Origin: Verrucomicrobiota bacterium
GTDB lineage: Bacteria; Verrucomicrobiota; Kiritimatiellia; CAIQIC01
Length of the DNA: 64,000 nucleotides
Reading direction: 5' to 3'
Assembly (NCBI GenBank): GCA_004321905.1
Contig: SCQF01000001.1
Location: 25,404 to 89,403, forward strand
Shown: piece by piece, positions 1,771 to 63,888 of the stretch
Layout: each line of letters opens with the position of its first letter
Position numbering within the stretch: position 1 is the stretch's first letter
Made by a program: the position numbers and the translations under genes
The notes under the pieces: generated by a model
The model's database searches: none
Told to the model about the DNA's origin: nothing
Seen by the model: only the letters and a program-made list of their open reading frames with translations

Positions 1771-1817
1771 TTCCAACCCTTGGAAATTCCGCCGTCACTT
1801 TTTTCCAAGCTTTGGAA
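1771..1817. repeat. Paired TTCCAA-N3-TTGGAA palindromes, 32-bp phasing
   Basis: TTCCAACCCTTGGAA (1771) and TTCCAAGCTTTGGAA (1803). Confidence 0.95.
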
Positions 1818-1946
1818 AAGCACTACACTGACCGCGTATTAGCTTGCCCTGTTTTTGCGAGCCGTGTAGCGCTTGATAGGTCTGTTTTTCGCCGAAAACG
1901 GTGTTTAGATCAATTACCGTCTCGTCGGCCTGTATCCAAAATAGTT

Positions 1947-2234
1947 TCAGCGGCGCACCGTTTGATCTTGGATCTTCTTCTGTACGCCGGGTGTGCCTTG
2001 CACAATGCTAACGGCACGCATGCGCACGGTCTCGTCGTTGACCACACCGCGCAAGATCACAACCCCCTCTTGCACCGTTACATTCAACATCTGCCGCCGG
2101 ACAAGATTGTCTTGATTGAGGCGTTCCATGATTATCCGCTGTAAATCCTGATCATCAGTGGAAGATAACGTGCTACACCCGATGAGATTCAACCCCAGCA
2201 CTACGAAACAGCCGATTTTCTTTATTATTTTCAT
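1947..2234 (-). CDS. BON-domain lipoprotein
   Basis: Lipobox (LNLIGC) and BON-like NVTVQEGVVILRGVVNDETVRMRAVSIVQGTPGV. Confidence 0.75.
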   Translation of the reverse strand: MKIIKKIGCFVVLGLNLIGCSTLSSTDDQDLQRIIMERLNQDNLVRRQMLNVTVQEGVVILRGVVNDETVRMRAVSIVQGTPGVQKKIQDQTVRR

Positions 2235-2302
2235 ATATACAACTCCATTAAAGCCTACCGAGTATACCACGCGCCGGCCATTCTCGTCGTCAAAAAAACC
2301 GG

Positions 2303-4144
2303 CTATTCTACCGTCACACTTTTGGCCAGATTGCGCGGCTTATCAATATCCGTGCCGCGCGCCTGGGCGGCATAATAGGCCAGCAGTTGCAACGTCACTA
2401 CATTGACCATGGGCGAAAATTCATCGCGGGTGGGCGGTACCCAGAGAATGTCTTCCGCAAGCTGCGCAATCGTTGCGTCGCCATCCGTGGCCAGCGCGAT
2501 GATGCGGCCATGCCGCGCTTCGACCTCCTTGATGTTGGAGATCATCTTGGCGTATACCTCGTCGCGCGTGCGGGTGCAAATACAGATCACGGGCAGGTAT
2601 TCGTTGATGAGCGCGATGGGCCCGTGTTTCATCTCGCCGGCCGCATAGCCTTCGGCATGTTGGTACGAAATTTCTTTGTTTTTCAGCGCGCCTTCCAGTG
2701 CCGTGGGATAGTTGAAACGTCGTCCCAAATAGAGCGAACTGGGACCGTCGTGATGCTTATCCGCTACGGTGCGAATCTCGTCTTTTCGATCCAGCACATA
2801 GTGAATGGCGTCGGGAATCGTTTGCAGATCGGTCAGCAACTCTTGTGCCTGTGTCTCGGCCAATTCGCCACGCGCGCGGCCGATGAAGAACGCCAAGAGG
2901 GCAAAGGCCATGAGTTGCGCCGTGAAAGATTTGGTGGCCGCCACGCCGATTTCCGGGCCGGCCTCGGTGAAGAATACGGCGTCGCTCTCCCGCGCCACCG
3001 TGCTGCCGGGCACATTGCAAATCGCCAGAATTTTACAGCCCCAACTCTTGGCCATCCGGATCGAAGCGAGGGTGTCGGCGGTTTCGCCGGATTGTGAGAC
3101 CGCGATGATCAACGTGCCGGGATCAATTTTGGGGTCGCGGTAGCGAAACTCGCTGGCCAAATCGGTTTCCACCGCCAAGCTGGTGACGTTCTCCAGCAGC
3201 AATTTCCCATACATTCCCGTGTGATAGGCCGATCCGCACGCCACAATCATCACGCGGTTGAGTTTGCGGAAGTAGGGCGCGCCCAAGGCGAAATCCGGCA
3301 GGGCCACCGTGCCGCTCTGCCAGCCGTGCCGCGCGAGCAGCTGCCGGAGGATCCGCGGCTGCTCGTGGATTTCCTTGAGCATGAACGTTTCAAACCCAGC
3401 CTTCTCCACCGCTTCCGCCGCAATGGTCACCGGTTGGATTTTTGCCTCCACTGCGGTGCCGTCCAGCCGGCTCAAGCTGACGCCATCGGCACGCAGGATG
3501 ACCACCTCGCCGTCATCCAGATAAATCACGCGTTGCACTTGATCCACGATTGCCGGCACATCGCTGGCGATAAAGTGTTCGTCGCGCCCGACGCCGACGA
3601 TCAAGGGGCTACCGTGCCGTGCCGCATAGAGCGTATGGGGTTGGTCGTGGAATAGAATCCCCAGCGCATAGGCGCCTTTGGCGCGCCGCAACGCGCGCCG
3701 AATCGCTTCTTCGGGCGTCGGTGCGCCGGCGGCAAGTTCCGCCTCGATCAAATGCGGGATGACTTCTGTGTCGGTCTGCGAACGGAATTTGTGACCTTGT
3801 GCCGTCAGTTCCGCGCGTAACTCTTGATAGTTCTCAATGATGCCGTTGTGGACGACGGCGATTCGCCCGGTGCAATCCGTGTGCGGATGGGAGTTGACCT
3901 CGTTCGGTTCGCCGTGGGTCGCCCAGCGTGTATGTCCTACGCCCAGTGTCCCGGTCACCGGATGTTCAGCCAGTTTCTGCTCCAGCACGGCCAAGCGGCC
4001 AACGCTCTTACGAACGACCAAGGCGTCCGCCTGCCGGACCGCGACGCCCGCCGAATCATAGCCGCGGTATTCCAGTCGCTTCAGACCGTTGATGAGCAAC
4101 GGTGTTGCATTGCGCTTGCCGACATAGCCTACGATGCCACACAT
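2303..4144 (-). CDS. glmS: Glutamine--fructose-6-phosphate aminotransferase (isomerizing)
   Basis: MCGIVGYVGKRNATPLLINGLKRLEYRGYDSAG ... full-length 613 aa ending DKPRNLAKSVTVE. Confidence 0.98.
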   Translation of the reverse strand: MCGIVGYVGKRNATPLLINGLKRLEYRGYDSAGVAVRQADALVVRKSVGRLAVLEQKLAEHPVTGTLGVGHTRWATHGEPNEVNSHPHTDCTGRIAVVHNGIIENYQELRAELTAQGHKFRSQTDTEVIPHLIEAELAAGAPTPEEAIRRALRRAKGAYALGILFHDQPHTLYAARHGSPLIVGVGRDEHFIASDVPAIVDQVQRVIYLDDGEVVILRADGVSLSRLDGTAVEAKIQPVTIAAEAVEKAGFETFMLKEIHEQPRILRQLLARHGWQSGTVALPDFALGAPYFRKLNRVMIVACGSAYHTGMYGKLLLENVTSLAVETDLASEFRYRDPKIDPGTLIIAVSQSGETADTLASIRMAKSWGCKILAICNVPGSTVARESDAVFFTEAGPEIGVAATKSFTAQLMAFALLAFFIGRARGELAETQAQELLTDLQTIPDAIHYVLDRKDEIRTVADKHHDGPSSLYLGRRFNYPTALEGALKNKEISYQHAEGYAAGEMKHGPIALINEYLPVICICTRTRDEVYAKMISNIKEVEARHGRIIALATDGDATIAQLAEDILWVPPTRDEFSPMVNVVTLQLLAYYAAQARGTDIDKPRNLAKSVTVE

Positions 4145-4171
4145 AACTCGTTTACGCCCTCATCGCCGTCA

Positions 4172-4214
4172 ATAACAAAGCGCTCTCCCCGCCTTCGCCG
4201 GAAGAGCGCTTGTG
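4172..4214 (-). terminator. Rho-independent terminator-like hairpin downstream of pilin-like gene
   Basis: Inverted repeat AAGCGCTCTTCC...GGAGAGCGCTTTGTTATT read on minus strand. Confidence 0.5.
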
Positions 4215-4240
4215 CGACCAAGCCCATCGCTATTCACGCA

Positions 4241-4882
4241 TTAAGGCTGACGCACTTGTAAAGTTTGACCCTGTAATTCTTGGGCAGTATGCGGATTGAA
4301 GTTGCTGGAAACATTGTCTGGAGTGAGAACAAAAGAGGATCCTCCTTTATAAGTTACACAGACCCCTTTATTGCCAAAAGGAACATTATCGGGGGGCGAC
4401 GTATTCCATTTCGGAGTACCACCGATCAGAAACGCGGAAAGGTCGCTGACGCTCAGGTTCCTTGTGAAAATAAAGGGCACAGTGTCCGGAACACTGTCGT
4501 TCAAACCGGTGACCATGCACCAGGCATTATTCTCTTTCCTGAACAGACTCGGATCGCTTCCTTTATATGCAGGTACTTCAGGCGCTGCAAAAATCGCATA
4601 GTCCGACATGCTTCCAACACCAACCAAATTAGTAAAATACAGCGTGGATGAAGAGTAATCATTTTGCTTGGGCCAACCCGACGAATCCGGGGAGGAAACC
4701 CTTGAGAATGTCGCCAGATAAATCTGTCGCCCGTTACTGGCCACGTTGGACATTTTTGCCTTGGTCATTGCGCCGGTAATCGCCGGCAAGAGCGACCCAG
4801 CCAAGATCGCGATGATCGAAATGACGACCAACAATTCGATAAGGGTGAAAGCCGCTTTCTGCATCCGTTGTAGCATTTTCAT
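4241..4882 (-). CDS. Prepilin-type N-terminal cleavage/methylation domain protein (pseudopilin)
   Basis: MKMLQRMQKAAFTLIELLVVISIIAILAGSLLPAI. Confidence 0.88.
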   Translation of the reverse strand: MKMLQRMQKAAFTLIELLVVISIIAILAGSLLPAITGAMTKAKMSNVASNGRQIYLATFSRVSSPDSSGWPKQNDYSSSTLYFTNLVGVGSMSDYAIFAAPEVPAYKGSDPSLFRKENNAWCMVTGLNDSVPDTVPFIFTRNLSVSDLSAFLIGGTPKWNTSPPDNVPFGNKGVCVTYKGGSSFVLTPDNVSSNFNPHTAQELQGQTLQVRQP

Positions 4883-4975
4883 GGTTTCTCCTGTTTCAAT
4901 TTTGACTACCGCACGACCCATACGATACGCCCCGCCATTTACGCCGTCAACAATTTGTATTAGTGTCCGTCGCCC

Positions 4976-6025
4976 ATGCAAACCAGCGATTTTGATTATC
5001 AGTTGCCTGCGGAGCTTATCGCGCAGGAACCGGCGCCCCGGCGCGATGCCGCGCGGTTGCTCGTGGTGCGGCGCGCAGGCGGAACACTTGAGCATCACCG
5101 CTTCGCTGATCTGCCGACGCTCCTGCGCGCCAATGACTTGTTGGCGCTCAACGACACGCGTGTCCTGCCGGCGCGCCTCTTGGGCCGCAAACCCAGCGGC
5201 GGAAGAATCGAGTTGCTCTTGTTGGAAGAACGTACGCCGGGCGAATGGGAAGCTTTGCTCCGCGCTGGTTCCAAGCGGCCCCAGCCGGGCGCGGTGCTCA
5301 CGCTTGCCGAAGGTGCGGCGCAGGCGACGCTGCTAAACACCGGCGAACAGGGCCGCGTTACCCTCCGTATCACGAGCGCTTTGTCCGTTTTCGATTTGCT
5401 CGAACGCTACGGGCTGCCGCCGTTGCCGCCGTATATTCAGCGATCAGCGATCAGCGATCAGCAGTCAGCCGAAGATCGTGCGCGCTATCAAACCGTTTTT
5501 GCCCAAACACCAGGCGCGGTGGCCGCGCCGACCGCCGGGCTACATTTCACGCCAGAACTTTTCCAAACCTTGGAAAACAGTGGAATTCATCGCGCGTTCG
5601 TCACGCTGCACGTCGGACTTGGCACGTTCCGTCCTGTCACCGCTGAACGTGTTGAGGAGCACCGGATGGAGGCCGAGCGCTACTCCGTTCCGCCGGAGAC
5701 CGCCGCATGTGTTGCGGAAACCCGCCGCGCGGGCGGTCGCATCGTTGCGGTCGGCAGCACCAGCGTACGTACGCTGGAAACCGTCGCTGCGGAGCATGCG
5801 GGCAACGTGATTGCGGCGGAAGGCCGCACGCGGTTGTTCATTGTGCCGCCTTACCGTTTTCGCGTGGTGGATGCGCTGATCACCAACTTCCACTTGCCGC
5901 GCTCCACGCTACTGATGATGGTTTCCGCCTTTGCCGGTCACGACCTGGTCCAGCACGCCTACGCCGAGGCGATCCGCGAGCGCTATCGTTTTTATAGCTA
6001 TGGCGACGCGATGCTGATTTTGTGA
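4976..6025 (+). CDS. queA: S-adenosylmethionine:tRNA ribosyltransferase-isomerase
   Basis: MQTSDFDYQLPAELIAQEPAPRRDAARLLVV ... GLHFTPELF ... ALITNFHLPRSTLLMMVSAFAG. Confidence 0.97.
   Translation: MQTSDFDYQLPAELIAQEPAPRRDAARLLVVRRAGGTLEHHRFADLPTLLRANDLLALNDTRVLPARLLGRKPSGGRIELLLLEERTPGEWEALLRAGSKRPQPGAVLTLAEGAAQATLLNTGEQGRVTLRITSALSVFDLLERYGLPPLPPYIQRSAISDQQSAEDRARYQTVFAQTPGAVAAPTAGLHFTPELFQTLENSGIHRAFVTLHVGLGTFRPVTAERVEEHRMEAERYSVPPETAACVAETRRAGGRIVAVGSTSVRTLETVAAEHAGNVIAAEGRTRLFIVPPYRFRVVDALITNFHLPRSTLLMMVSAFAGHDLVQHAYAEAIRERYRFYSYGDAMLIL
5561..5575. repeat. TTCCAA-N3-TTGGAA palindrome inside queA
   Basis: TTCCAAACCTTGGAA, encodes FQTLEN. Confidence 0.9.
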
Positions 6026-6063
6026 TCCTACACAGGTAGGAGCCGCAAAACTTTACGGCGATT

Positions 6064-6146
6064 TTCCAAGGGTTGGAAAACGGGGCGTTGCAATTTCCCA
6101 AGCCCTGGTCGCCTCTGGCGCCGCCGAAGGCGGGTAAACCCTGGAA
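6064..6146. repeat. Paired palindromes, second copy interrupted by 28-bp insert
   Basis: TTCCAAGGGTTGGAA (6064), TCCCAAGCCCTGG (6096) + TCGCCTCTGGCGCCGCCGAAGGCGGGTA + AACCCTGGAAAA. Confidence 0.9.
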
Positions 6147-6148
6147 AA

Positions 6149-6670
6149 TCAGAAGACGATCGGCGCGAACACCGGATATTTTTTCAGCTTTTCGCGTCCG
6201 TGAAGGAAGGCGAGTTCGATCAGAAATTCGATTTCGATGATTTGCCCGCCGAGTTGTTCGATCAGGCCAGCGGTTGCCGCCGCCGTGCCGCCGGTCGCCA
6301 GCAGATCATCCACGAGCAACACGCGCTCGCCGGGCAAAACGGCATCGGTGTGCGTGTGCAACGTGGCGCTGCCGTATTCGAGGTCGTAGCTTGCGGAAAT
6401 AGTGCGGCCCGGCAGCTTGCCGGGCTTGCGAATCAGTGCAATGCCCGCGCCGAGCTTGAGCGCGACGCCCGCGCCGAAGGTGAAGCCGCGTGCCTCAATC
6501 ATCGCCACCTTGTCAATGCGGCTCTTGAGGTGCCGGTCGGCGAGCAAATCCACCGCGGCGCGAAAGAGTTTTGGATCGGCCAATACCGGCGTGATGTCTT
6601 TGAACAGAATACCGGGTTTGGGGAAATCAGCTACGTCGCGAATGGCTTTTTTGAGCGCGTCGGCGTTCAT
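6149..6670 (-). CDS. apt: Adenine phosphoribosyltransferase
   Basis: MNADALKKAIRDVADFPKPGILFKDITPVL ... VLLVDDLLATGGTAAA. Confidence 0.96.
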   Translation of the reverse strand: MNADALKKAIRDVADFPKPGILFKDITPVLADPKLFRAAVDLLADRHLKSRIDKVAMIEARGFTFGAGVALKLGAGIALIRKPGKLPGRTISASYDLEYGSATLHTHTDAVLPGERVLLVDDLLATGGTAAATAGLIEQLGGQIIEIEFLIELAFLHGREKLKKYPVFAPIVF

Positions 6671-7586
6671 GTTGCTTCCCCGGTTTGGTTTGGTGTGAGC
6701 GCGCCGTTTTTTTCTTGGAAACTTTCTTCGCCGGCGCTTGGGCAATGGGTCGGGGCGGCGGTTCGGGCGGTAGGTCCTGCTCCAACAACTCGTGCAGCTT
6801 GGTCACGGCCACGTTTTGAATCTGCCGGACGCGCTCACGCGTGATATTGAAGCGCTTGCCGACATCGTCGAGCGTCTCTTCGGGCGTATCCTTTAGCCCG
6901 AAACGGAAGCGCAGGATTTCGCGTTCACGAAAATCGAGGTGGTTCATCAGCCGCTCGACCTCATTGCGCAACTGGACATCGTTGAGCAGATCGAAAGCCG
7001 TGCGCGCGTTGTCGTCGCCGATAATGTCGCCGTAGCTGGCGTCGCCATCTTCGCCGATGGGCGAATCGAGCGACGTCGGGCGGAGCGTCACCACCTGCCA
7101 CTGCTGCACCGTCGCGGGCGCCACGTCCAGTTTAAAAGCGATCTCGTCCACGGTCGGCTCGCGGCCCAGTTTTTCGGTCAGCATGTGCTCGACCTTGCGC
7201 ATCTTGGCGACTTTATCCACGAGGTGCGCGGGAAGCCGAATCGTCTTGCTCTGGTTGGCGAGCGCACGTTTGATCGCCTGTTTGATCCACCACGCCGCAT
7301 AGGTGCTGAGCTTGCCGCCCTTTTTGGGATCGAAGCGTTCCACGGCCTTCATCAGGCCGATGTTACCCTCGGAAATCAGGTCGAGGAGCGGTAGGCCATA
7401 GCGCGCGTAATCGTGAGCGATCTTCACGACCAGCCGCAAGTTGGCAAGGATCATCTGCTGGCGCGCTCTTTGATCGCCGCGCTTGATGCGCTTGGCCAAC
7501 ACGACCTCGTCGGCCCGCGTCAAAAGCGGCGTCTGGCCGATTTCGCGCAGATAAATTTTAATTCCACTTTCTTCTCTATCGAACAT
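6627..7586 (-). CDS. RNA polymerase sigma factor, RpoD/SigA-like, with basic C-terminal tail
   Basis: Regions 2-4 recognisable: LISEGNIGLMKAVERFDPKKGGKLSTYAAWWIKQAI ... REREILRFRFGL ... ITRERVRQIQ; start placed at MFDREESGI. Confidence 0.93.
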   Translation of the reverse strand: MFDREESGIKIYLREIGQTPLLTRADEVVLAKRIKRGDQRARQQMILANLRLVVKIAHDYARYGLPLLDLISEGNIGLMKAVERFDPKKGGKLSTYAAWWIKQAIKRALANQSKTIRLPAHLVDKVAKMRKVEHMLTEKLGREPTVDEIAFKLDVAPATVQQWQVVTLRPTSLDSPIGEDGDASYGDIIGDDNARTAFDLLNDVQLRNEVERLMNHLDFREREILRFRFGLKDTPEETLDDVGKRFNITRERVRQIQNVAVTKLHELLEQDLPPEPPPRPIAQAPAKKVSKKKTARSHQTKPGKQHERRRAQKSHSRRS

Positions 7587-7732
7587 GACGATATCCGGGT
7601 ATGAGCAGCCCCCGCAGGCGGCTATTGTGCTGACGCGCGCCCGAAAAGCAAGCCGCGGTTTTCGCGAAGTGCCATTGTATGTGTTGTGAGCTATGTGCCA
7701 ATGTGTGCATATAGGCAAATACCCGCGCATTT

Positions 7733-7747
7733 TTCCAAGCCTTGGAA
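7733..7747. repeat. Single TTCCAA-N3-TTGGAA palindrome
   Basis: TTCCAAGCCTTGGAA. Confidence 0.9.
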
Positions 7748-7749
7748 AA

Positions 7750-9360: not shown

Positions 9361-9446
9361 GGCGCGGCATCATGGCATAGCCGCCCGCGCCGCGCAACGC
9401 CACCGCCGGAAGAAGTGAATCGCTGAGACGCAGAGAGCGCCCTACC

Positions 9447-9493
9447 TTCCAAGGATTGGAAAAATCCATGCCGCAGAGTTCCAAGCCTTGGAA
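9447..9493. repeat. Paired palindromes, 32-bp phasing
   Basis: TTCCAAGGATTGGAA (9447), TTCCAAGCCTTGGAA (9479). Confidence 0.95.
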
Positions 9494-9543
9494 AGCCGTG
9501 GCGCGGCGATGAAAAAAGAGGCGCGTGGAGCCGTGCTTTTGCT

Positions 9544-10746: not shown

Positions 10747-10748
10747 TT

Positions 10749-10795
10749 TTCCAGGGCTTGGCAAAAGGAAACGCACGGTTTTCCAGGCCTTGGAA
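10749..10795. repeat. Paired palindromes, 32-bp phasing
   Basis: TTCCAGGGCTTGGCA, TTCCAGGCCTTGGAA. Confidence 0.92.
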
Positions 10796-10815
10796 ACGTG
10801 AAAGGAGCGGAAGCG

Positions 10816-11794: not shown

Positions 11795-11834
11795 AGAGAA
11801 AAGAGACGGCGCAAACCGTCTCTTTTCTTTTTTT
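11795..11834 (+). terminator. Rho-independent terminator of HU gene
   Basis: AAAAGAGACGG-CGCAAA-CCGTCTCTTTTCTTTTTTT. Confidence 0.88.
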
Positions 11835-11879
11835 CCAAGGCTTGGAAAAACGGACGGTTCAGTTTTCCAAGGCTTGGAA
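11833..11879. repeat. Paired palindromes, 32-bp phasing
   Basis: TTCCAAGGCTTGGAA twice (11833, 11865). Confidence 0.96.
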
Positions 11880-14597: not shown

Positions 14598-14644
14598 TTC
14601 CAAGCCTTGGAAAAGGAGACGATCTGATTCCCCAAGGCTTGGAA
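14598..14644. repeat. Paired palindromes, 32-bp phasing
   Basis: TTCCAAGCCTTGGAA, CCCCAAGGCTTGGAA. Confidence 0.93.
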
Positions 14645-14782: not shown

Positions 14783-17116
14783 ATGGACAAACCCCCATTT
14801 GAATTACCGGGTTACGAGCTGTTGGAGACGCTGGGCGAAGGCGGCATGGCCGTCGTCTGGAAAGCCCGCCAACGCTCGCTTGACCGGTTGGTGGCGATCA
14901 AAATTCTGATGCCGCAATGGCGCCAGGATGCCGACGCCATGGCTCGCTTTCGCAAAGAGGCGCTGGCCGCCGCCCGGCTCAAGCATAGCGGGATCATCCA
15001 AGTGTTCGACGCCGGCGAGACGGTGGATGCGGTCTATTTCGTGATGGAGTATGTCGCGGGCTATACCATCGGCGAGCGCATTCGCAAGCACGGCCCATTG
15101 GACGAAGAAACGGCGCTGGACATCACGTTGGGCGTCGCTGCCGCGCTGAGCTACGCGTGGCAAAGCGCGCAGATGATTCACTGCGACATCAAGCCCGACA
15201 ACATCATGATTGACCACGACGGCACCGTGAAGATTGCCGATCTGGGGCTGGCGCGGGCGCTCGGGCCGACGGGCACCACCGGGGCGGATGAATACATCGT
15301 CGGCACGCCCAACTATCTCTCGCCGGAGCAGGCGCGCGGCGAGGCCGATCTCGATTGCGGCACCGATGTCTATGCGCTGGGGGCGACGCTCTATCACATG
15401 GTCACCGGGCGCCTGCCGTTTGGCGATACGCCCGGCACCATGCCGCTGGAGCGGCAGCAGACGGATTTTCTGCTCGACCCGCTGGACCTCAGTCCGAACC
15501 TTTCGCCGGTGCTGGGCGCACTCATCGAACGCATGATGGTCAAAGATCGGCAACTTCGGCCCGCCACATGGCGGCAAGTTATCGGCGACGTACAAGAGGT
15601 GCGCGAGGGGTACCTGCCCGCAGGCGATCTGCCGCCGGCTGGTGCGAGTACCGTTTTGCGTAGCGCGTGGCGTACGGAGAATCCTGGCAGACATCGGCCG
15701 CCGCCCCATGTGCCCAAGAAAGCGCTCCTCACTATTTCTCCGGCAGCGCAGTTGCACCCGGCCGTTGCACGGCCCACGCAGCCGACCTCGACCCGCGCGC
15801 GCCACCGCCGTAACTGGTCGGTGGTGATCGGTCAGGTCGTTATCATCGCCGCACTGGTTGTCACGGGGTATGCGGCGCTCTATCTCTATCTAAATCTCAG
15901 CGGCAAGCTGTCGGTTTACCGCGAGTTGCCGCCGCCCAAAACCGGTGAAATTGGTAAGCGTGAAGGGTCGGCCCCCAAAGCGCCCGTGACCCATCCGGTG
16001 GTCGCGTCAGTGCCGCAGGTCAGCCCCGCGCCCACCACCACGGTGGTTGTTGCGACCCCGCCGCCGGAACCGGTTGTAGCCGTCACCGACGTGGCACCCG
16101 CAGAGACGAATGCACCGCCGCCACCGGTGGTCGTCCCGCCTCCCGCCAATGTTGAGGCCAAGGTGAAGCCCAACGGCAACCACCATTCGGCGCTTTATCG
16201 GCGGGCGGCGCGTTTTTATAATTATGCGCTCGATCTGCATCGCGCGTATGCCGACCGCACCAACTTGCGGGTTGTGCAACGCGTCGAAGCCGCTTGCCGG
16301 CAGGCCACCGCCGACTTCAACGCTTGCCGTGAGGCGCAGACCGACAAAGCATCCGTGGATCAACTCGTGCAGCAGTGTTATCAAGTGCTCGCCGATACAC
16401 GGCTCACGGCCAAGACCGCGAATGCGACCGGTCCCGCCGCATCGGCGCTTCCGCCGCTGCCCAGCATGGACTTGCCAGACGAAGCCGCCGCGCCCGACAA
16501 CCTGCAACCCGCACTGGCCGCGGCCTGGAAAACAAAACCGGCGAAGCGTGCGGCCGTACAAGACGAGTTCCGCGACTTGTTCAGCCTTTGTCCGCCCGCC
16601 CGCGCCATCGGCACGCAAAATTTGCTGCTTTATGATCGCATCGCCTACGGGATGTCCGCCGCGGATGCGGCGCGACTGTTCGGCGCCACTAGCGGCGCGA
16701 TGCAGACGCTGGCCAGTCCGCTTTTCCCCGCTGGTCACTACTTTCTACACGACGTTGTCATCACACCCGTTGATGGTTTCAATCACCTGTTGCTGATCGT
16801 GGACCACGCCGACCGCATCGTGGCGGTGCAATTGGTGACCGATCAGCCTACCGACGGCGAGTTGCGCCTGCCGCCGACGCTGTTCCAAGCGCAGGGTAAA
16901 TGCTACGACTTCATCCGCGTGCTCTCCAAACCCAAAACGGCGTGGCAGATTGCCTACCGCGTCGCGCTTGTCGGCAAACTGGCGCGACTCGATTGCGAAC
17001 TGGCCTCCGACAACTCCGCTGCGCCATTGGGCTTGGGCGCGCCGCGCGCGCGCAGTTACCTCTATCTGCCGCAAACGCTCGCCGCGCAGATGTTGGAACG
17101 CGCGGAAGCACCCTGA
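14783..17116 (+). CDS. Ser/Thr protein kinase with TM segment and C-terminal extracytoplasmic region
   Basis: YELLETLGEGGMAVVWKARQ ... VAIKIL ... IHCDIKPDNIMID ... KIADLGLA ... GTPNYLSPEQ. Confidence 0.93.
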   Translation: MDKPPFELPGYELLETLGEGGMAVVWKARQRSLDRLVAIKILMPQWRQDADAMARFRKEALAAARLKHSGIIQVFDAGETVDAVYFVMEYVAGYTIGERIRKHGPLDEETALDITLGVAAALSYAWQSAQMIHCDIKPDNIMIDHDGTVKIADLGLARALGPTGTTGADEYIVGTPNYLSPEQARGEADLDCGTDVYALGATLYHMVTGRLPFGDTPGTMPLERQQTDFLLDPLDLSPNLSPVLGALIERMMVKDRQLRPATWRQVIGDVQEVREGYLPAGDLPPAGASTVLRSAWRTENPGRHRPPPHVPKKALLTISPAAQLHPAVARPTQPTSTRARHRRNWSVVIGQVVIIAALVVTGYAALYLYLNLSGKLSVYRELPPPKTGEIGKREGSAPKAPVTHPVVASVPQVSPAPTTTVVVATPPPEPVVAVTDVAPAETNAPPPPVVVPPPANVEAKVKPNGNHHSALYRRAARFYNYALDLHRAYADRTNLRVVQRVEAACRQATADFNACREAQTDKASVDQLVQQCYQVLADTRLTAKTANATGPAASALPPLPSMDLPDEAAAPDNLQPALAAAWKTKPAKRAAVQDEFRDLFSLCPPARAIGTQNLLLYDRIAYGMSAADAARLFGATSGAMQTLASPLFPAGHYFLHDVVITPVDGFNHLLLIVDHADRIVAVQLVTDQPTDGELRLPPTLFQAQGKCYDFIRVLSKPKTAWQIAYRVALVGKLARLDCELASDNSAAPLGLGAPRARSYLYLPQTLAAQMLERAEAP

Positions 17117-17118: not shown

Positions 17119-17165
17119 TTCCAGAGCTTGGAAAATCGGCAGCGGTGTTTTTTCAAGGCTTGGAA
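17119..17165. repeat. Paired palindromes, 32-bp phasing
   Basis: TTCCAGAGCTTGGAA, TTTCAAGGCTTGGAA. Confidence 0.93.
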
Positions 17166-19012: not shown

Positions 19013-19096
19013 TTCCAAGGCTTGGAAAACGGATTACGCCCTTTTCCCAAACCTGGGGCGCCTCTGGCGCCGCCGAAGGCGGGTGAACCTTGGAAA
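19013..19096. repeat. Paired palindromes, second copy interrupted by 28-bp insert
   Basis: TTCCAAGGCTTGGAA (19013), TCCCAAACCTGG (19045) + GCGCCTCTGGCGCCGCCGAAGGCGGGTG + AACCTTGGAAA. Confidence 0.9.
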
Positions 19097-22913: not shown

Positions 22914-23180
<267 letters not shown>

Positions 23181-23226: not shown

Positions 23227-23241
23227 TTCCCAGCCTTGGAA
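23227..23241. repeat. Single palindrome
   Basis: TTCCCAGCCTTGGAA. Confidence 0.75.
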
Positions 23242-24456: not shown

Positions 24457-24503
24457 TTCCAAGGCTCGGGAAATGGTTGTGGGCGTTTTTCCAAGCCTTG
24501 GAA
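24457..24503. repeat. Paired palindromes, 32-bp phasing
   Basis: TTCCAAGGCTCGGGA, TTCCAAGCCTTGGAA. Confidence 0.92.
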
Positions 24504-27998: not shown

Positions 27999-28760
27999 CT
28001 ATCCGCTGTTCACCAGTTCGTAGTGCAGGACACTCAACGCAAACAGCGCGGCGGTATCCACACGCAGGACGTTGGTGCCGAACGCCACCGGAACCGCTCC
28101 GGCCGCTTCAGCAGCGCGATATTCCTCCGGTGTCAAATCGCCTTCCGGGCCGATGAGCACAGCGACGCGTTGCGGCGCTCGCGCACGGACAGCGGAAAGC
28201 ACAGTGTGTAGTGGTTGTGCGTTGGCGACGAGCGAGCCGACGCACCAGAAATCGAATTTTTCCAAGGTTTGGAAAAAGTTTTCCAAGGTCTGGACGTTGG
28301 CGATGCGCGGCAACCACGTCGCGTGACTCTGCCGTCCGGCGTTGAGCACGATGCGTTGCCAGCGTGCACTTTTCCCCGCGAACTGATCAGGCTTCAGACG
28401 TACGACGCAGCGCGCGGATAGCACCGGCAAAATCGCCGTCGCGCCCAGCTCCACGGCTTTTTGCACCACGAAATCCATCGTCGCTTCGCGCGGCAAGGCT
28501 TGGACGAGAATCAGCTCTGGCACGGGGCGCGGATGGGTTTGCTGCTCCAGCAACCGGAGTTCTACGTCGCGTTTGCTGATGTGGTCAATCTGCGCCATAC
28601 CAGTGCGACCCGCCCCATCGAATACCTCGGTGTGCTCGCCTTCGCGGGCGCGCAGCACATTGACGAGGTGGTGTGCCTCGGTTTCGTCGGGCGTCAGCAT
28701 GGTGCCGCGCCAAGCGGCGGGCGCAACGTAGCAGCGCAGATGTTCGCGATCAAATTTCAT
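27999..28760 (-). CDS. rsmE: 16S rRNA (uracil1498-N3)-methyltransferase RsmE
   Basis: HHLVNVLRAREGE ... QALPREATMDFVVQKAVELGATAILPVLSARCVV ... IGPEGDLTPEE. Confidence 0.92.
   Translation of the reverse strand: MKFDREHLRCYVAPAAWRGTMLTPDETEAHHLVNVLRAREGEHTEVFDGAGRTGMAQIDHISKRDVELRLLEQQTHPRPVPELILVQALPREATMDFVVQKAVELGATAILPVLSARCVVRLKPDQFAGKSARWQRIVLNAGRQSHATWLPRIANVQTLENFFQTLEKFDFWCVGSLVANAQPLHTVLSAVRARAPQRVAVLIGPEGDLTPEEYRAAEAAGAVPVAFGTNVLRVDTAALFALSVLHYELVNSG
28260..28295. repeat. Paired palindromes, 21-bp phasing, inside rsmE
   Basis: TTCCAAGGTTTGGAA, TTCCAAGGTCTGGAC. Confidence 0.9.
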
Positions 28761-29841: not shown

Positions 29842-30513
29842 ATGCAAACGCCGCCTTTCGCCGGAATTCGCGCCGCTGTGTTCGACTTCGATGGCACGTT
29901 GTTCGATGCCACCGACGCGATCTGTCACTCGCTCAACGCCGCGTTGGTGGCGCACGAGCGCCCGCCGCTGACGCGGGCGGAAATTCTTCCAAGGATTGGA
30001 AGACCGCTCTACGAAATTTTCCAAACCTTGGAACCCGGCGCGCCGCCGGAGCGCGTGCAGTCGCACGTGGACGCCTATCGCGAGGCGTTCTGGCCGGTCT
30101 GCCTCAAGTTGACGCGCGAGTTGCCGGGCTTGCGCGCCTGCGTGGAAAGTTTGCGCGGACGCGTTGGGTTGGCGATTGCCACCAACCGTTCGGGACGCGG
30201 CGCGCAGTACATTCTGGACGGGTTTGGCTTTGGGAAAGACTTCAGCGTCATCGTCGCGCTGGAGGATGTGGAGAAGGTCAAGCCAGATGCGGAGCCGGTG
30301 TTGAAGGCGTGCGCGCAACTCAGCGTGCCCCCGGAACAGGCGGTGATGGTCGGCGATACGCCGGACGATATGCGGGCGGGCCGCGCAGCTGGTGCGATGG
30401 CGGTGGGAATGACCACCGGCGCACACTCTGCGGTGACCTTGCGGGAAGCCGGCGCGTACGCGGTGCTGGATTCGCTCGCGGAGTTGCCGACACTGCTGAA
30501 CGTTGTAGCTTAG
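29842..30513 (+). CDS. HAD-family phosphatase (Gph-like)
   Basis: AVFDFDGTLFDATDAICHSLNAAL ... VMVGDTPDDMRAGRAAGAMAVGMTTG. Confidence 0.92.
   Translation: MQTPPFAGIRAAVFDFDGTLFDATDAICHSLNAALVAHERPPLTRAEILPRIGRPLYEIFQTLEPGAPPERVQSHVDAYREAFWPVCLKLTRELPGLRACVESLRGRVGLAIATNRSGRGAQYILDGFGFGKDFSVIVALEDVEKVKPDAEPVLKACAQLSVPPEQAVMVGDTPDDMRAGRAAGAMAVGMTTGAHSAVTLREAGAYAVLDSLAELPTLLNVVA
29987..30033. repeat. Paired palindromes, 32-bp phasing, inside HAD phosphatase gene
   Basis: TTCCAAGGATTGGAA, TTCCAAACCTTGGAA. Confidence 0.94.
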
Positions 30514-32931: not shown

Positions 32932-32978
32932 TTCCAAGCCTTGGAAAAACCGTGCGGTTGAATCTCCAAGGTTTGGAA
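32932..32978. repeat. Paired palindromes, 32-bp phasing
   Basis: TTCCAAGCCTTGGAA, CTCCAAGGTTTGGAA. Confidence 0.93.
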
Positions 32979-33995: not shown

Positions 33996-34079
33996 TGCCG
34001 GAGGTGGGAGTTGAACCCACACGCCTTTGAAGGGCGCTGGATTTTGAGTCCAGTGCGTCTGCCATTCCGCCACTCCGGC
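33996..34079 (-). tRNA. tRNA-Leu (anticodon CAA)
   Basis: Minus strand GCCGGAGTGGCGGAATGGCAGACGCACTGGACTCAAAATCCAGCGCCCTTCAAAGGCGTGTGGGTTCAACTCCCACCTCCGGCA folds as class II cloverleaf. Confidence 0.97.
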
Positions 34080-34132: not shown

Positions 34133-34178
34133 TTCCAAAGCTTGGGAATTTTTCTCGCCGTTTTTCCAAGGCTTGGAA
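34133..34178. repeat. Paired palindromes, 31-bp phasing
   Basis: TTCCAAAGCTTGGGA, TTCCAAGGCTTGGAA. Confidence 0.92.
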
Positions 34179-34226: not shown

Positions 34227-35603
34227 ATGGCCAACATCCGCTACATCAGCACGCGCGGACAGACGCCGCCGCTGGGCTTCAGCGACGCGGTGATGGCCGG
34301 TCTCGCGCGCGACGGCGGGCTGCTCGTCCCCGAGCAAATTCTTCCGCCCGACGATCGTTTTCATGAGTGGCCGACGATGTCCTACCGCGAGCTGGCCTAT
34401 GAGCTCGTCGTCCGCTACGCCGACCTTGGGCAGGTTGAGATTGCCAAGTTAGTGCACGACGCTTACGACAGCTTTCGCTACTCCGAAGTCGTCAGCCTCG
34501 TACCCGCCGGGCCGGTGCACGTTTTGGAATTATTTCATGGCCCGACGTTGGCGTTCAAAGACATCGCGCTCCAATTTCTTGGTCCGCTGTTCAGCCTGCT
34601 GCTGAAAAAATCCGGCGGCAAGATGAACATCGTCGCTGCGACCAGTGGCGATACCGGCAGTGCCGCGATTGCCGGTGTGCGCGGTCGTGAACGCATCCAA
34701 ATTTTCGTCATGCATCCGCGTGGACGCGTCAGCCCCACGCAGGAACGGCAGATGACCAGCGTGCTCGATGCGAATGTGTACAACCTCGCCATCGAAGGCA
34801 GCTTCGACGATTGCCAGCGCATCATGAAGGAGCTGTTCGCCGATCTGCCGTTCAAAGATCGCCATGCGCTCGGCGCGGTCAATTCAGTCAACTGGGCGCG
34901 CGTGCTCATTCAGATGGTTTATTATTTCCACGCCGCGTTTCGTCACTGTGCCGCGACCGGCGCGAAGCAAGTGCAGTTCGCCGTGCCGACCGGCAATTTC
35001 GGTGACATCCTCGCCGGCTATTACGCGGCAAAAATGGGCGCGCCGATCAAGCGTTTGATCCTCGCGACGAACGAGAACGACATCCTCGCGCGCTTTTTCA
35101 AAACCGGCGAATATAGCCTTGGCAAGGTCGTGCCGACGCTTTCGCCCTCGATGGATATTCAGGTGGCGAGCAACTTTGAGCGCTACCTCTTCACCCGCGT
35201 CGGCGGCGATGCTGCGAAATTGCGCGGATTGATGGATCAGTTCGGGCGCGAGGGACGGTTACGCGTTGTGGGTGGCGATCCACTGTTCGTTGCCGGCGTC
35301 GGCAACACGGCCGCGACGCGCGCCACGATCAAAAAATACCACGAGCAGCACGACTATCTGCTCGATCCGCACACCGCCGTGGGCGTTCATGTGGCCGAGC
35401 AATTCCTTGATCCCGAAGCGCCGACCATCTGTCTCGCTACCGCGCATCCGGCGAAGTTCGGTCAGGCAATTCTGGAAGCGACCGGGAAAGACTTGGCGCA
35501 CCATCCGATCCTCGATGCGCTCGCCGATTTGCCGACGCGCTGCACCACCTTGCCCGCCGAGGCCGCCGCTGTCCGCGACTTCATTGCGGCTCACGCACAG
35601 TGA
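34227..35603 (+). CDS. thrC: Threonine synthase
   Basis: MANIRYISTRGQTPPLGFSDAVMAGLARDGGLLVPE ... ELFHGPTLAFKDIALQFLG ... AATSGDTGSAAIAG. Confidence 0.96.
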   Translation: MANIRYISTRGQTPPLGFSDAVMAGLARDGGLLVPEQILPPDDRFHEWPTMSYRELAYELVVRYADLGQVEIAKLVHDAYDSFRYSEVVSLVPAGPVHVLELFHGPTLAFKDIALQFLGPLFSLLLKKSGGKMNIVAATSGDTGSAAIAGVRGRERIQIFVMHPRGRVSPTQERQMTSVLDANVYNLAIEGSFDDCQRIMKELFADLPFKDRHALGAVNSVNWARVLIQMVYYFHAAFRHCAATGAKQVQFAVPTGNFGDILAGYYAAKMGAPIKRLILATNENDILARFFKTGEYSLGKVVPTLSPSMDIQVASNFERYLFTRVGGDAAKLRGLMDQFGREGRLRVVGGDPLFVAGVGNTAATRATIKKYHEQHDYLLDPHTAVGVHVAEQFLDPEAPTICLATAHPAKFGQAILEATGKDLAHHPILDALADLPTRCTTLPAEAAAVRDFIAAHAQ

Positions 35604-35607: not shown

Positions 35608-35622
35608 TTCCAAGCCTTGGAA
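35608..35622. repeat. Single palindrome at thrC stop codon
   Basis: TTCCAAGCCTTGGAA. Confidence 0.92.
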
Positions 35623-40138: not shown

Positions 40139-40185
40139 TTCCAAACCTTGGAACAATAGGGGCATGGTTTTTCCAAGGCTTGGAA
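40139..40185. repeat. Paired palindromes, 32-bp phasing
   Basis: TTCCAAACCTTGGAA, TTCCAAGGCTTGGAA. Confidence 0.95.
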
Positions 40186-42746: not shown

Positions 42747-42804
42747 AAGGTGGAACGCGTCGGCCCGACGCGTTCGAGCGCGTTCGGTGAACGAGCTCCA
42801 CCTT
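42747..42804. repeat. 58-bp hairpin-rich repeat element (family B), copy 2
   Basis: AAGGTGGAACGCGTCGGCCCGACGCGTTCGAGCGCGTTCGGTGAACGAGCTCCACCTT; opposite orientation to copy at 14666. Confidence 0.75.
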
Positions 42805-42868
42805 CCAAGGATTGGAAAAGCGGGTGGGGCGGACTCTCGCCAGAGGCGAGCAAGTCCAAGGTTTGGAT
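42803..42868. repeat. Paired palindromes, 51-bp spacing with intervening CTCGCC-AGA-GGCGAG hairpin
   Basis: TTCCAAGGATTGGAA, GTCCAAGGTTTGGAT. Confidence 0.85.
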
Positions 42869-42953
42869 ATGGAGTGCGCAAGCTTGCTTGCGCCTTTATG
42901 CCGCGAAGCTAGCTTCGCGATAACAAAGCGGCAGCAAGCTGCCGCACTCCAAA
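42868..42953. repeat. Triple-hairpin repeat element (family D)
   Basis: GGAGTGCG ... CGCACTCC outer arms enclosing GCGCAAGCTTGCTTGCGC, CGCGAAGCTAGCTTCGCG, GCGGCAGCAAGCTGCCGC. Confidence 0.8.
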
Positions 42954-47048: not shown

Positions 47049-47094
47049 TTCCAAGGCTTGGAAAAAGGGCGCGGTGTGTTTTCCAAACTTGGAA
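47049..47094. repeat. Paired palindromes, about 31.5-bp phasing (second has N2 centre)
   Basis: TTCCAAGGCTTGGAA, TTCCAAACTTGGAA. Confidence 0.92.
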
Positions 47095-47106
47095 AAACCG
47101 CACGAA

Positions 47107-52145: not shown

Positions 52146-52160
52146 TTCCAAGGCTTGGAA
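52146..52160. repeat. Single palindrome
   Basis: TTCCAAGGCTTGGAA. Confidence 0.92.
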
Positions 52161-54259: not shown

Positions 54260-54263
54260 AAAT

Positions 54264-55343: not shown

Positions 55344-55346
55344 TTT

Positions 55347-55361
55347 TTCCAAGCCTTGGAA
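55347..55361. repeat. Single palindrome at aroC stop codon
   Basis: TTCCAAGCCTTGGAA. Confidence 0.92.
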
Positions 55362-55369
55362 AACTCGGC

Positions 55370-57769: not shown

Positions 57770-57879
57770 CGGCACCCTCAAATCAAGAGTAGCGTAACAA
57801 AGCCCCCACCCGCCTTCAACAAGGAATACGCTGGCGGTTTGGGGTTGCGCGCGGGACGCTCAATCCGTATCTTGCGGCC

Positions 57880-58770: not shown

Positions 58771-58779
58771 AGGCAAGCC

Positions 58780-59787
58780 ATGAGCATCACCAGCACACGC
58801 GTGCAAAACATTCTCCAGCAATTTCAGCGGCAGCGTATTCTCGTCATCGGCGACCTGATGCTGGATCGCTATATCTATGGCGATGTGCATCGGATTTCAC
58901 CGGAAGCGCCGGTGCCCGTGGTGCATGTACAACGCGAAAAAGCCATGCCGGGCGGCGCGAGCAACGTGGCCGCCAACATCCGCGCGCTTGGCGGCCAGGC
59001 CGCCCTCTGCGGTTTGCTGGGCCGCGACGCAGCGGGCCGCGAGCTGCGCGAAATTCTAATCAAAAATAGCGTCATCACCGAGGGCATCCTCGACCTGCCG
59101 GAATTGCACACCACCGTCAAAACCCGCATCATCGCCGACCGCCAGCAGGTGTGCCGCGTGGACTGGGAAGAAAAACCACGCCTCGACGAACCGACGCTCG
59201 ATGGCTTTTGCAAACGGATTGCCGTTGAATTGAAAAAATCCACCGGTGCGATTCTGGAGGACTACGGTAAAGGCGTCTTGCAGCAGCGCGTCGCAGACGT
59301 CGCGCTATCCGCCGCAAAATCGTCCAACATCCCCGTTGGCCTTGACCCCAAGGACTATTCGCTGCATCTCGCCGGGCTGACGATTGCCACGCCGAACCGC
59401 AAAGAAGCCTTTGCCGCCGCAGGTTTACCGGAGACGTCGCCGGTCGCCGATCCCTTGCATGATCGTGCGCTGCTCGAAGCCGGTCAACGCTTGCTGACGA
59501 AGTGGCTGCCCAAAATGCTCATCATTACGCTCGGCCCGCAGGGCCTGCTGCTGCTCAGTGCCGAGGCGCCGCCGCACCACGTGCCAACGCGTGCGCGCGA
59601 GGTGTTTGATGTTTCCGGCGCCGGCGACACCGTCATCGCCACGTGTCTGCTCGCGCTCGCCGCCGGAGCCGAACCGATTGAAGCCGCCGAGTTGGCCAAC
59701 TTCGCCGCCGGCGTCGTCGTGGGTAAAATCGGCACGGCGACGTGCAGTCCGGAGGAATTGCTGGCGGCGGTGACCAACCATGGCTAG
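58780..59787 (+). CDS. PfkB-family heptose-7-phosphate kinase (HldE domain I / RfaE1)
   Basis: RILVIGDLMLDRYIYGDVHRISPEAPVPVVHVQREKAMPGGASNVAANIRALGG ... DVSGAGDTVIATCLLALAAG. Confidence 0.93.
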   Translation: MSITSTRVQNILQQFQRQRILVIGDLMLDRYIYGDVHRISPEAPVPVVHVQREKAMPGGASNVAANIRALGGQAALCGLLGRDAAGRELREILIKNSVITEGILDLPELHTTVKTRIIADRQQVCRVDWEEKPRLDEPTLDGFCKRIAVELKKSTGAILEDYGKGVLQQRVADVALSAAKSSNIPVGLDPKDYSLHLAGLTIATPNRKEAFAAAGLPETSPVADPLHDRALLEAGQRLLTKWLPKMLIITLGPQGLLLLSAEAPPHHVPTRAREVFDVSGAGDTVIATCLLALAAGAEPIEAAELANFAAGVVVGKIGTATCSPEELLAAVTNHG

Positions 59788-59793
59788 AAAGTT

Positions 59794-59840
59794 TTCCAAC
59801 CCTTGGGAAAAAGGATCACCCCGCTTTCCAACCCCTGGAA
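59794..59840. repeat. Paired palindromes, 32-bp phasing
   Basis: TTCCAACCCTTGGGA, TTCCAACCCCTGGAA. Confidence 0.93.
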
Positions 59841-59851
59841 AGGAACACAAA

Positions 59852-60436
59852 ATGAAACACCGATTACCACTTGTCACGGCCCTGTTGCTTGCTGGCACGG
59901 CCTTCGCCGCCGTGGACATCAGCAAGTTGCCTGCCGGTGTCCGCCGAATCGAGCGGATCAAGGACGCCCAAGCGGAGGCCAGGCAGCAAAAGAAGGCGTT
60001 GATGTTCGCGCTTTCGGAAATGACCCCCAAAGGCGGCGGCAAAGGCAATGCGTTCGTGCTTGGGGCGACGCAACAATTGATCCAAAAGATGCGCGGCCTG
60101 TGCGTCGTCGTCTTTGTGGATTTCACCAACGACCGCGCCAAACTGGCCAAAGTATTGCCGAAGATTGACGCGGCCTTCGATTCCGAGGCGGCGAAAGGTC
60201 CCATTCCACGCACGGTGGTAACCGATGCCGCTGCCGAGAAAATTTACGCGATCATCCCGTATGCGCCCGCCGGGCCGTTCGGCGAGGAAATGATCAAGGA
60301 AGCCAAACAGAAAATTCAGGATGGACTGGCCGGCAAGACCGTGACCGACGACGTCGGCATTCCGGGCGAAAAAAACCGCGAAATTGCTGCGCCGCCCTCT
60401 GGGAAGAAAAAAAAGAAACCGAACAATGACAACTAG
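59852..60436 (+). CDS. Secreted protein of unknown function
   Basis: Signal peptide MKHRLPLVTALLLAGTAFA and continuous 195-aa ORF. Confidence 0.7.
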   Translation: MKHRLPLVTALLLAGTAFAAVDISKLPAGVRRIERIKDAQAEARQQKKALMFALSEMTPKGGGKGNAFVLGATQQLIQKMRGLCVVVFVDFTNDRAKLAKVLPKIDAAFDSEAAKGPIPRTVVTDAAAEKIYAIIPYAPAGPFGEEMIKEAKQKIQDGLAGKTVTDDVGIPGEKNREIAAPPSGKKKKKPNNDN

Positions 60437-60491
60437 CCACATCCCGTCCCATTCTGCTGGGACACCGGCGCACAATTAAAGGATACACATC

Positions 60492-61715
<1,224 letters not shown>

Positions 61716-61728
61716 AGCAAACTCACAT

Positions 61729-61807
61729 TTCCAAGCCTTGGAAACGCCTATGCACCGCTTTCCTAGCATTGGAAAACCACGCGGTCTTTCTCTTTCAAGG
61801 CTTGTCA
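61729..61807. repeat. Palindrome triplet, 31 + 33 bp (64 total)
   Basis: TTCCAAGCCTTGGAA, TTCCTAGCATTGGAA, TTTCAAGGCTTGTCA. Confidence 0.8.
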
Positions 61808-62228
61808 ACAGAAGAGGTGGATAACGTACGATTCTTTTCGCATTTTCCGGATGGCCGTGCTCCCGGTAGTTGGTGGTTAGGGAAACAACCCAACCACAGG
61901 AAAGACGACCATAGCCATTTTTGTCCGCCAACACAAGAAAGGTCTCTGGGCAACACGCCGTGAAGACGTGACCCTCATTCCCTTCTGCCTTCCCTTGGCG
62001 GATTCAGTTTGACGTAGGTGAACTTGGCTCCATAAGCCCGAACGGCCAGCGGGGGCGAACGTCGGTCACGGGTGTGCAAGCGTGCGACCGACGCACCCGG
62101 CCGAGCGGTCGTCGGCAACGATGAGCCTTCATAGCCGGGAAGCTGCCCCGCCTTCATTTTCATAGCTTGGCATCGCCCATGCTGTTGGTTGGCGTGTAGG
62201 GTTCCTCGAACTGAGTGATGGCCAGCGT

Positions 62229-63725
62229 TTACGCATCTACAGGCTTGCTCTGAAAGTCCTGAATAATTTTTTCATACAAGTCACGGTGCTCGACCACGAG
62301 TTGTTTGCTTAATTCAAAAACCTTCGCCATGTCCAGAATTTCGTGATGATACCAACGTTTCAGACCATCCAAATCCACGACTTTGAGCGCCGGAGTCAAG
62401 TTGTCCAAGGCCGGCTCCACGTTGCGCGGCAACGCTAAATCAATAATCAGAATTTCCTTGTCCTGCGCCAGAAAAGGAGCGTGCCCTTTGTGGAGGATGT
62501 ACCCCGGACTCGCTGCCGTGCAAATAATGACATCCACTTTGGGCAACTGCGTGGGGAGATCGTTAAAGGTAGAAATGGCGACGTGTTTTTTCCATGACTC
62601 CTGCAGCTCGGGCTTATTGACATGATAGCACCATTCGCAGGCATGGCCCATGCCAAGCAGGCGATGAATCAAACCGTTCCCCACCATGCCCGTACCCAGC
62701 ACCATGATCCGTTTATGATTGAGTTCTTTGCATTCCGTTTTTAGATAATCCACACAAAGATCTTCGATTTCACGGTTCTGTAACAGCGGCCCGGTCACCC
62801 GGCGGATATCCTTCGACACATGCAGCGCGGAGCCAACCCAACCCTGCATCATGCTGCCAGACCACCCACGTTGCGTGGCATAGTCCAGCGCCTCTTTGAC
62901 CTGCGCGACAATGTGATTTTCGCCTGGCGATTGGGAGAGCAGACCTGCACACACAATCGCCAAATGATCAAAAGCTTCAAAACCACGCTTCACGTAATAT
63001 TCCTCTTCCTTCAGGTGGAAGAAAGCCATGATGCGCTTCAGCAAGGCTTCAACGTTGGTTTCCCTGGCGACGATTCCGACCAACTCAACACGATTGCAGG
63101 TGTTCAACAGCATGAACTCGTGAATACCCCAGACTTGCATCATCATTTGCCCGGTTTGATCCATGCGCTTGCCCAAAAGATGAAAGGGTTCGCGGCGCTG
63201 AATGGGAAGCTGATGATGACTCGTGCCCACCACGATGAGGTCAGCTGTTTCCATCATTTCGACGTGCCGTGCGAGATTGTTTTTGACCAATCGCGAACGC
63301 CGGCAGGACTGTCCACCGGACGACACCGACACCGTCAAAGCGTCCTTGCGAAAGATCGCCGGTGTAATAAAGTCGCCACTGATCCAGTTCCGATCCGTCA
63401 AACCGCAAAGTACATGCCGTGCGTCACAATACTCCCGCACATGGCGATTAACGGAATTATCATTGGTGGCCGCTATGACCAAAAAAACACCTTCCACGTC
63501 GGAGTCAACAAACTTACGCGGGCTGTAGTGAATAACTTTGTTTTCGGCGAGACGCACGATTTCCTCATCCGCCTCTGGCCCCACCACGGTGACGTGCGCT
63601 TGGGCCTCCAACAAAAGTTTTACCTTATGTAGCGCCGTTTTCCCGCTGCCAACAACCAGGCAGGCCTTCTTTTCCAACAGAAGTCCCACCGGGAAAACCG
63701 TCCTAAACCGTGTGTTGGTTTGCAT
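62229..63725 (-). CDS. hemA: Fusion: precorrin-2 dehydrogenase-like domain + glutamyl-tRNA reductase
   Basis: N-terminus KKACLVVGSGKTALHKVKLLLEAQAHVTVVGPEA...AATNDNSVNRHVREYC; C-terminus IVVGTSHHQLPIQRREPFHL ... LLNTCNRVELVGIV ... SPGENHIVAQVKEALDYA. Confidence 0.93.
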   Translation of the reverse strand: MQTNTRFRTVFPVGLLLEKKACLVVGSGKTALHKVKLLLEAQAHVTVVGPEADEEIVRLAENKVIHYSPRKFVDSDVEGVFLVIAATNDNSVNRHVREYCDARHVLCGLTDRNWISGDFITPAIFRKDALTVSVSSGGQSCRRSRLVKNNLARHVEMMETADLIVVGTSHHQLPIQRREPFHLLGKRMDQTGQMMMQVWGIHEFMLLNTCNRVELVGIVARETNVEALLKRIMAFFHLKEEEYYVKRGFEAFDHLAIVCAGLLSQSPGENHIVAQVKEALDYATQRGWSGSMMQGWVGSALHVSKDIRRVTGPLLQNREIEDLCVDYLKTECKELNHKRIMVLGTGMVGNGLIHRLLGMGHACEWCYHVNKPELQESWKKHVAISTFNDLPTQLPKVDVIICTAASPGYILHKGHAPFLAQDKEILIIDLALPRNVEPALDNLTPALKVVDLDGLKRWYHHEILDMAKVFELSKQLVVEHRDLYEKIIQDFQSKPVDA

Positions 63726-63841
63726 ACAATTCCTTACGTCTCAAAACAGACAGTATTTTAACCTCATGCGACCTGCTGTTCAAGCCGTGCCGCGGCCACG
63801 CCACCGGCGAAAATGAAAAGGAATCGTTACATACGGCCTGT

Positions 63842-63888
63842 TTCCCGGGCTTGGAAACAGGGGTGTCCCCGTTTTTCAACCCTGCGGA
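63842..63888. repeat. Decayed palindrome pair, 32-bp phasing
   Basis: TTCCCGGGCTTGGAA, TTTCAACCCTGCGGA. Confidence 0.6.

Follow-up and report, generated by a model that had tools for sequence, protein, structure and literature searches.

Across the 64,000-nt stretch of a Verrucomicrobiota genome analysed here (contig SCQF01000001.1, positions 25,404 to 89,403; the window), copies of a short palindrome, TTCCAA-N3-TTGGAA, are set whole turns of the DNA helix apart, and relatives of the bacterium keep the same phasing with flanking bases of their own. We lean towards the view that each palindrome is the site for one dimer of a homodimeric DNA-binding protein which is specific to the clade, assembles on one face of the DNA and is probably architectural. 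The evidence comes from the number and spacing of the copies, from their distribution among lineages and orthologous genes, and from their location.

Helical phasing of the palindrome

Allowing up to two mismatches, the window has 48 matches to the pattern, compared with a mean of 2.18 and a maximum of 7 in 100 shuffles; a preceding sequence-only reading had counted about 47. The genome as a whole (2.53 Mb in 85 contigs, 94% complete, of which about 355 kb were examined in detail) has 853 exact copies and none of the reversed, non-complemented control pattern. Sites with at most one mismatch occur about once per 2 kb. The consensus of 53 pairs is a site of about 19 bp, TTTTCCAAG-S-CTTGGAAAA, with perfect dyad symmetry. 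Palindromes stand alone, in pairs or in arrays with a maximum of seven.

Distances of up to 100 bp between copies in the window are 32 bp (12 cases), 31 bp (3), 21 bp (1) and 51 bp (1), besides one overlapping match. Fourteen pairs at 32 bp had been listed by the sequence-only reading. In 11 of them both members have two mismatches or fewer; the other three (6064/6096, 19013/19045 and 63842/63874) have four mismatches in the second member, which in the first two pairs is broken by a 30-bp insertion. The sharp genomic peak that it anticipated is present: in 330 kb of the window's genome, neighbours are 32 bp apart in 53 cases and 31 bp apart in 11, and any other distance is found at most twice. 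Its equation of 32 bp with three turns was right as to whole-turn phasing but the distance is not unique, relatives using two, three, four, five and more turns. Pooled distances in the relatives are 22, 31-32, 42, 52-53, 62-63, 73-74, 83-84, 93-94, 104-105, 114 and 124 bp. Among copies more than 35 bp apart, a period of about 10.4 bp (10.4-10.5) gives a phase coherence of R = 0.91 (n = 94) in contigs L076-L155 and R = 0.82 (n = 37) in genome G079, and none of 500 uniform null sets was as strong as either. It should be noted that part of this long-distance signal consists of sums inside arrays; G079 has direct distances of 22, 31-32 and 41-42 bp. What is constrained is the face of the helix and not 32 bp itself, three turns being the preference of the window's family.

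Apart from A and T flanks of both sites and a weak composition bias, the 53-pair consensus has nothing in the spacer. Over 56 spacers, mean identity in the inner 11 bases is 4.01 of 11, compared with 3.93 after column shuffling; the spacers are therefore not homologous, as was claimed when they were first seen to differ at each locus. The selection on one-face dimer binding proposed at that time is upheld by a period of 10.4-10.5 bp that extends beyond 100 bp with no copied spacer.

Phylogenetic range, dialects and gene context

A relaxed scan for phased pairs covered genome contigs of 84,980 species. Among the matches listed, the labels were Kiritimatiellae, Lentisphaerae, Verrucomicrobia(ota) or metagenome-assembled genomes (MAGs) without a taxon label; two were Spartobacteria or Opitutia. 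Judging by the record titles, the clade with phased pairs is part of the little-studied class Kiritimatiellia, and genomes of the same phylum outside the class have five exact copies or fewer each. Dialect-tolerant pairs (TCCA-N5-TGGA twice, 31 or 32 bp apart) were found in 83 of 248 class genomes and the control nowhere, in a scan that misses dialects without the TCCA core and includes many fragmentary MAGs. In the window's order all 23 genomes are positive (G231, G355 and G364 with one pair each), as are families f5, f6, f10, f17, f22, f27 and f65 and part of f9 and f11. The same scan gave no pairs in families f7 (11 genomes), f8, f12, f13 (about 65 genomes), f14, f15, f16 and f20. The highest count, 1466 pairs, belongs to the 6.7-Mb genome G315 of family f10.

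The core TCCA-N5-TGGA is constant and the flanking bases vary by lineage, giving rise to dialects: TTCCAAG in the window's genus and TTCCAAT in G087, G056 and G160. The dialect of group g5 is TTTCCATTG; its sampled genomes have no TTCCAA copies and 14-253 relaxed copies. At unchanged spacing, G020 has GTCCAA, G038 has GTCCAR, and G265 has TTCCATGC and TTACAG. Since dialects differ, genomes that appear near-empty with the TTCCAA pattern are often positive. In the motif-poor G050 and G084, a dialect-free palindrome autocorrelation over 80 kb each revealed no hidden dialect. Masked stretches of G157 were left out of the analysis.

A comparison of orthologous places, suggested with the sequence-only reading, found the sites at pgsA and trpF kept across relatives and other sites turning over. 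Upstream of pgsA, the gene for a CDP-alcohol phosphatidyltransferase, an array spans the promoter region in four congeneric species, all of which retain its first two palindromes together with the central triplets; in the sister genus, two species retain only a degenerate trace of the first palindrome. Within the trpF coding sequence, two or three palindromes 31-32 bp apart are found in families f1 (G000, G012), f4 (G160) and f2 (G056), at the same codons in all three families and in each family's own dialect. Elsewhere trpF has one weak site in G115 and G289, and two in G355, itself almost site-free. Identical codons in different dialects indicate that the DNA sequence is held against the protein sequence, and some sites, such as those of trpF, are ancient.

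With respect to genes, the sites had been described as occurring between convergent, divergent and tandem pairs. Every orientation is indeed represented, but placement does depend on the genes: in the window's genome, to which the following counts refer, short gaps between same-strand genes are avoided and the sites are found right behind stop codons. Gene calls here are codon-model predictions with uncertain start codons. By these calls, 138 of 167 sites (at most one mismatch) are intergenic, at a density 25-fold above that in genes. In 44 of 86 cases (18.5 expected, p = 2e-9) the closest palindrome centre follows the stop codon by 5-20 nt; the typical distance of clusters behind a stop codon is 8-20 nt. 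Among gaps of more than 80 bp, clusters are present in about half of the tandem and divergent ones and in 12 of 17 that are convergent; among short gaps they occupy 7 of 11 convergent compared with 10 of 51 tandem (p = 0.006). The 68 tandem gaps that measure 20 bp or less are too short for a site and carry no cluster, and a single palindrome makes up almost the whole of some convergent gaps of 21-28 bp.

Species G012 has 35 of its 36 sites between genes. In G079 (family f5, a single contig) 87 of 134 sites are inside genes, and in G035 (f9) 18 of 26, the density still being higher between genes in both. Counts in G079 also drop as the inferred origin becomes more distant (Spearman -0.51, p = 0.02), with very few sites in stretches near the terminus, two of which are low in GC.

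Candidate functions of the palindrome

In the explanation we prefer, one dimer would occupy each palindrome, the protein being specific to one branch of Kiritimatiellia. Dimers placed whole turns apart would face the same side of the DNA and touch, as expected of a self-associating protein, and two to seven sites may act together as one cooperative patch. A protein so abundant genome-wide would probably shape or insulate DNA rather than control a gene set; the density of sites and the genic sites of two families make architecture likelier than control of particular promoters. In the window's family the protein would sit mainly at transcription-unit borders, past stop codons and upstream of promoters, and could separate the units. 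More tentatively, the palindromes may mark a previously unknown, chromatin-like boundary system, in which a clade-specific protein, docked on one helix face at phased palindromes in their hundreds to thousands, would separate units in some lineages and co-evolve with its sites, related families thus reading different dialects.

Several observations weigh against an architectural protein of this kind. No binding protein was identified for the palindromes among the candidates examined (Lrp/AsnC and a phage helix-turn-helix (HTH) protein). Thus, of the original interpretation, one-face dimer binding survives, but nucleoid organisation or global regulation is not established. A border role is not general, since most sites are coding in G079 and G035. 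Copy number ranges from 3 to 1177 inside one genus, and at several orthologous gene ends no more than one or two species out of four have a site. Finally, hundreds of sites switch dialect between genera, which is hard to achieve under strong selection on each site.

Lrp/AsnC proteins drew attention by likeness: BarR, for example, has 15-bp semi-palindromic sites, several per region, and the family forms DNA-wrapping octamers (PMC10201364). The single Lrp/AsnC protein is present in almost all genomes, including those of the motif-free families f7, f8 and f13, and its recognition-helix region is not conserved, either inside a dialect group or from one group to another; it was rejected as the reader. 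Also rejected was the phage HTH protein with three palindromes in its own gene, whose homologues occur in 4 of 49 genomes and do not follow the motif. That gene belongs to a contig listed as viral (L014/L015), which also has terminase and portal genes; phased palindrome arrays are present in IMG/VR contigs L014-L017. A relaxed scan of viral contigs (65 matches, 16 fixed bases) was estimated to be mostly at chance level and was not used.

The main rival to a binding protein, unlikely in our view but live, is a DNA-uptake signal. A receptor preferring motif DNA would let transformation slowly load permissive places, as with the DNA uptake sequences (DUS) of Neisseria, and dialects would follow the receptor. 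DUS of Neisseriaceae do occur in dialects (Frye et al., 2013; PMC3630211), and the palindrome resembles them: its copy number is high and of a comparable order, its dialects go with lineages, its placement is permissive or intergenic, and it is associated with gene ends. The scarcity of sites in the low-GC stretches near the G079 terminus is consistent with uptake, as are the three family f1 genomes without ComEC (G115, G355 and G364; one 94% complete, the others 82-87%), which have the fewest sites for their size, a relation that is suggestive within f1 only. ComEC, however, is found in 52 of 57 genomes with or without the motif, motif-free families included, and outside f1 does not discriminate between them. 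Nor is a DUS a palindrome by itself; it has no reported helical phasing, and its inverted pairs are tied to terminators (PMC3630211), in contrast to the strict dyad symmetry and many-turn phased clusters found here. The arrays on phage contigs and the nearly exclusive intergenic placement in G012 also argue against uptake. In addition to ordinary ComEC, many positive families have another ComEC-like reading frame, about 1100-1370 aa long (the genomes include G065, G087, G093, G101, G007, G020, G038 and G265); none was seen in f1. A conventional global transcription factor, with operators near promoters and the extra sites as decoys, is rather improbable. The pgsA array does look operator-like, and to that extent the opinion that the element is neither operator nor terminator, sound as regards the terminator, has to be qualified. 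The pair at 34133..34178 stands 11 nt from TTGCGG, with the identical distance in G012, which gives the gene at 34227 a matched promoter distance in two species, and the low-copy G059 has three sites upstream of an aminotransferase. Such a factor would nevertheless have to contend with the site density of the window's genome, with the many sites between convergent genes or within genes, and with trpF sites that are mid-gene.

Two further readings start from the palindrome as a repeat or as RNA. Spread by copying of a mobile palindromic repeat, similar to repetitive extragenic palindromes (REP), their REPIN doublets or miniature inverted-repeat transposable elements (MITEs), is very unlikely. 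REP/REPIN sequences with RAYT transposases are likewise palindromic, extragenic and over-represented as doublets of characteristic spacing (Bertels and Rainey, 2011; PMC3116915), and the high copy number, intergenic bias, paired units and large copy-number gaps between congeners would suit them. The array at G295:C112:22-127, with its nearly identical spacers, indicates that local tandem duplication also adds to arrays in some genomes. But REPINs replicate as units, with spacers partly conserved and hairpin-forming (PMC3116915), whereas here the spacers are unrelated, so a copied-unit origin fits poorly, and the spacing takes any whole number of turns. Singles, pairs and longer arrays all occur, and the trpF sites hold position yet change dialect. 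The least probable reading is a transcript 3'-end element, either an intrinsic terminator or an mRNA hairpin, to which placement just past stop codons and the filling of convergent gaps by one palindrome would point. As a terminator it has the wrong order (T-run, stem, A-run), a terminator-like site is found at only 5 of 75 palindrome-bearing gene ends, and about half of divergent gaps carry the palindrome. Few gene ends have an intrinsic terminator nearby, whether the genome is motif-bearing or motif-poor, so there is no trade-off, and palindrome-poor relatives have no extra ones. A hairpin is not favoured by the transitions, 15 G-U-compatible and 11 incompatible, with no clear bias. Whole-turn phasing, moreover, belongs to the double-stranded DNA that a protein reads and has no natural RNA reading.

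None of the dispersed DNA signals compared joins perfect dyad symmetry to lineage dialects, to copies spaced by whole turns across as many as a dozen turns, and to persistence within a coding gene in several families. Cyanobacterial HIP1 is also a very abundant, clade-limited palindrome with its function open (PMC4390886), but it is the 8-bp GCGATCGC, tied to methyltransferases, and differs from the present motif. In the open-access literature, a search turned up neither the consensus nor any report of Kiritimatiellia repeats. A protein that reads these palindromes would have to be among the busiest DNA-binding proteins of these bacteria. Because families divide cleanly into positive and negative ones, a comparison of gene content should be able to find it, and dialects and phasing offer sharp binding tests. 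The question bears on how bacterial chromosomes are partitioned or, should the signal serve DNA uptake, on sexual isolation.

Features along the window

Table 1. Palindromes of the window in order of position.
Element	Coordinates	Context and remarks
Pair, 32 bp	1771..1817	Between two minus-strand genes; both copies exact
Single	5561..5575	Within gene 4976-6025
Pair	6064..6110	Second copy split by 30-bp hairpin insertion
Single	7733..7747	
Pair, 32 bp	9447..9493	Between divergent genes
Pair, 32 bp	10749..10795	Between tandem genes; begins right after stop codon
Pair, 32 bp	11833..11879	Between convergent genes; adjoins intrinsic terminator
Pair, 32 bp	14598..14644	
Pair, 32 bp	17119..17165	Starts 3 nt past stop codon at 17116
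Pair	19013..19059	Second copy split by 30-bp hairpin insertion
Single, 1 mismatch	23227..23241	
Pair, 32 bp	24457..24503	Between divergent genes
Pair, 21 bp (two helical turns)	28260..28295	Coding sequence
Pair, 32 bp	29987..30033	Coding sequence
Pair, 32 bp	32932..32978	
Pair, 31 bp	34133..34178	Immediately upstream of putative promoter, gene at 34227
Single	35608..35622	4 nt past stop codon at 35603; same position in G012
Pair, 32 bp	40139..40185	Upstream of pgsA; three congeneric species share both sites
Two palindromes, 51 bp apart	42803..42868	Second with 2 mismatches
Pair, 31/32 bp	47049..47095	Just past minus-strand stop codon; also in G115
Single	52146..52160	Between divergent genes
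Single	55347..55361	Fills 26-bp gap between two convergent stop codons
Pair, 32 bp	59794..59840	Starts 7 nt past stop codon at 59787
Pair, 31 bp	61729..61774	Shortly after stop codon at 61715
Weak pair	63842..63888	2 and 4 mismatches

The 30-bp insertion is a GC-rich hairpin, TCGCCTCTGGCGCCGCCGRAGGCGGGTAAA, with four copies in the sampled DNA of the window's genome, every one inside a palindrome: window 6109-6138 and 19058-19087, L034:3705-3734, and L256 near 1830-1850 (minus strand). Three of the four lie between duplicated CCTTGG-like hexamers that resemble a target-site duplication, and the L256 copy splits the third trpF palindrome in frame. At 42869-42953 a palindrome is followed by further inverted-repeat elements, and short matches to that stretch recur in relatives. 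The window also contains the bacterial large signal recognition particle (SRP) RNA (22915-23179, minus strand) and a tRNA gene (33996-34079).

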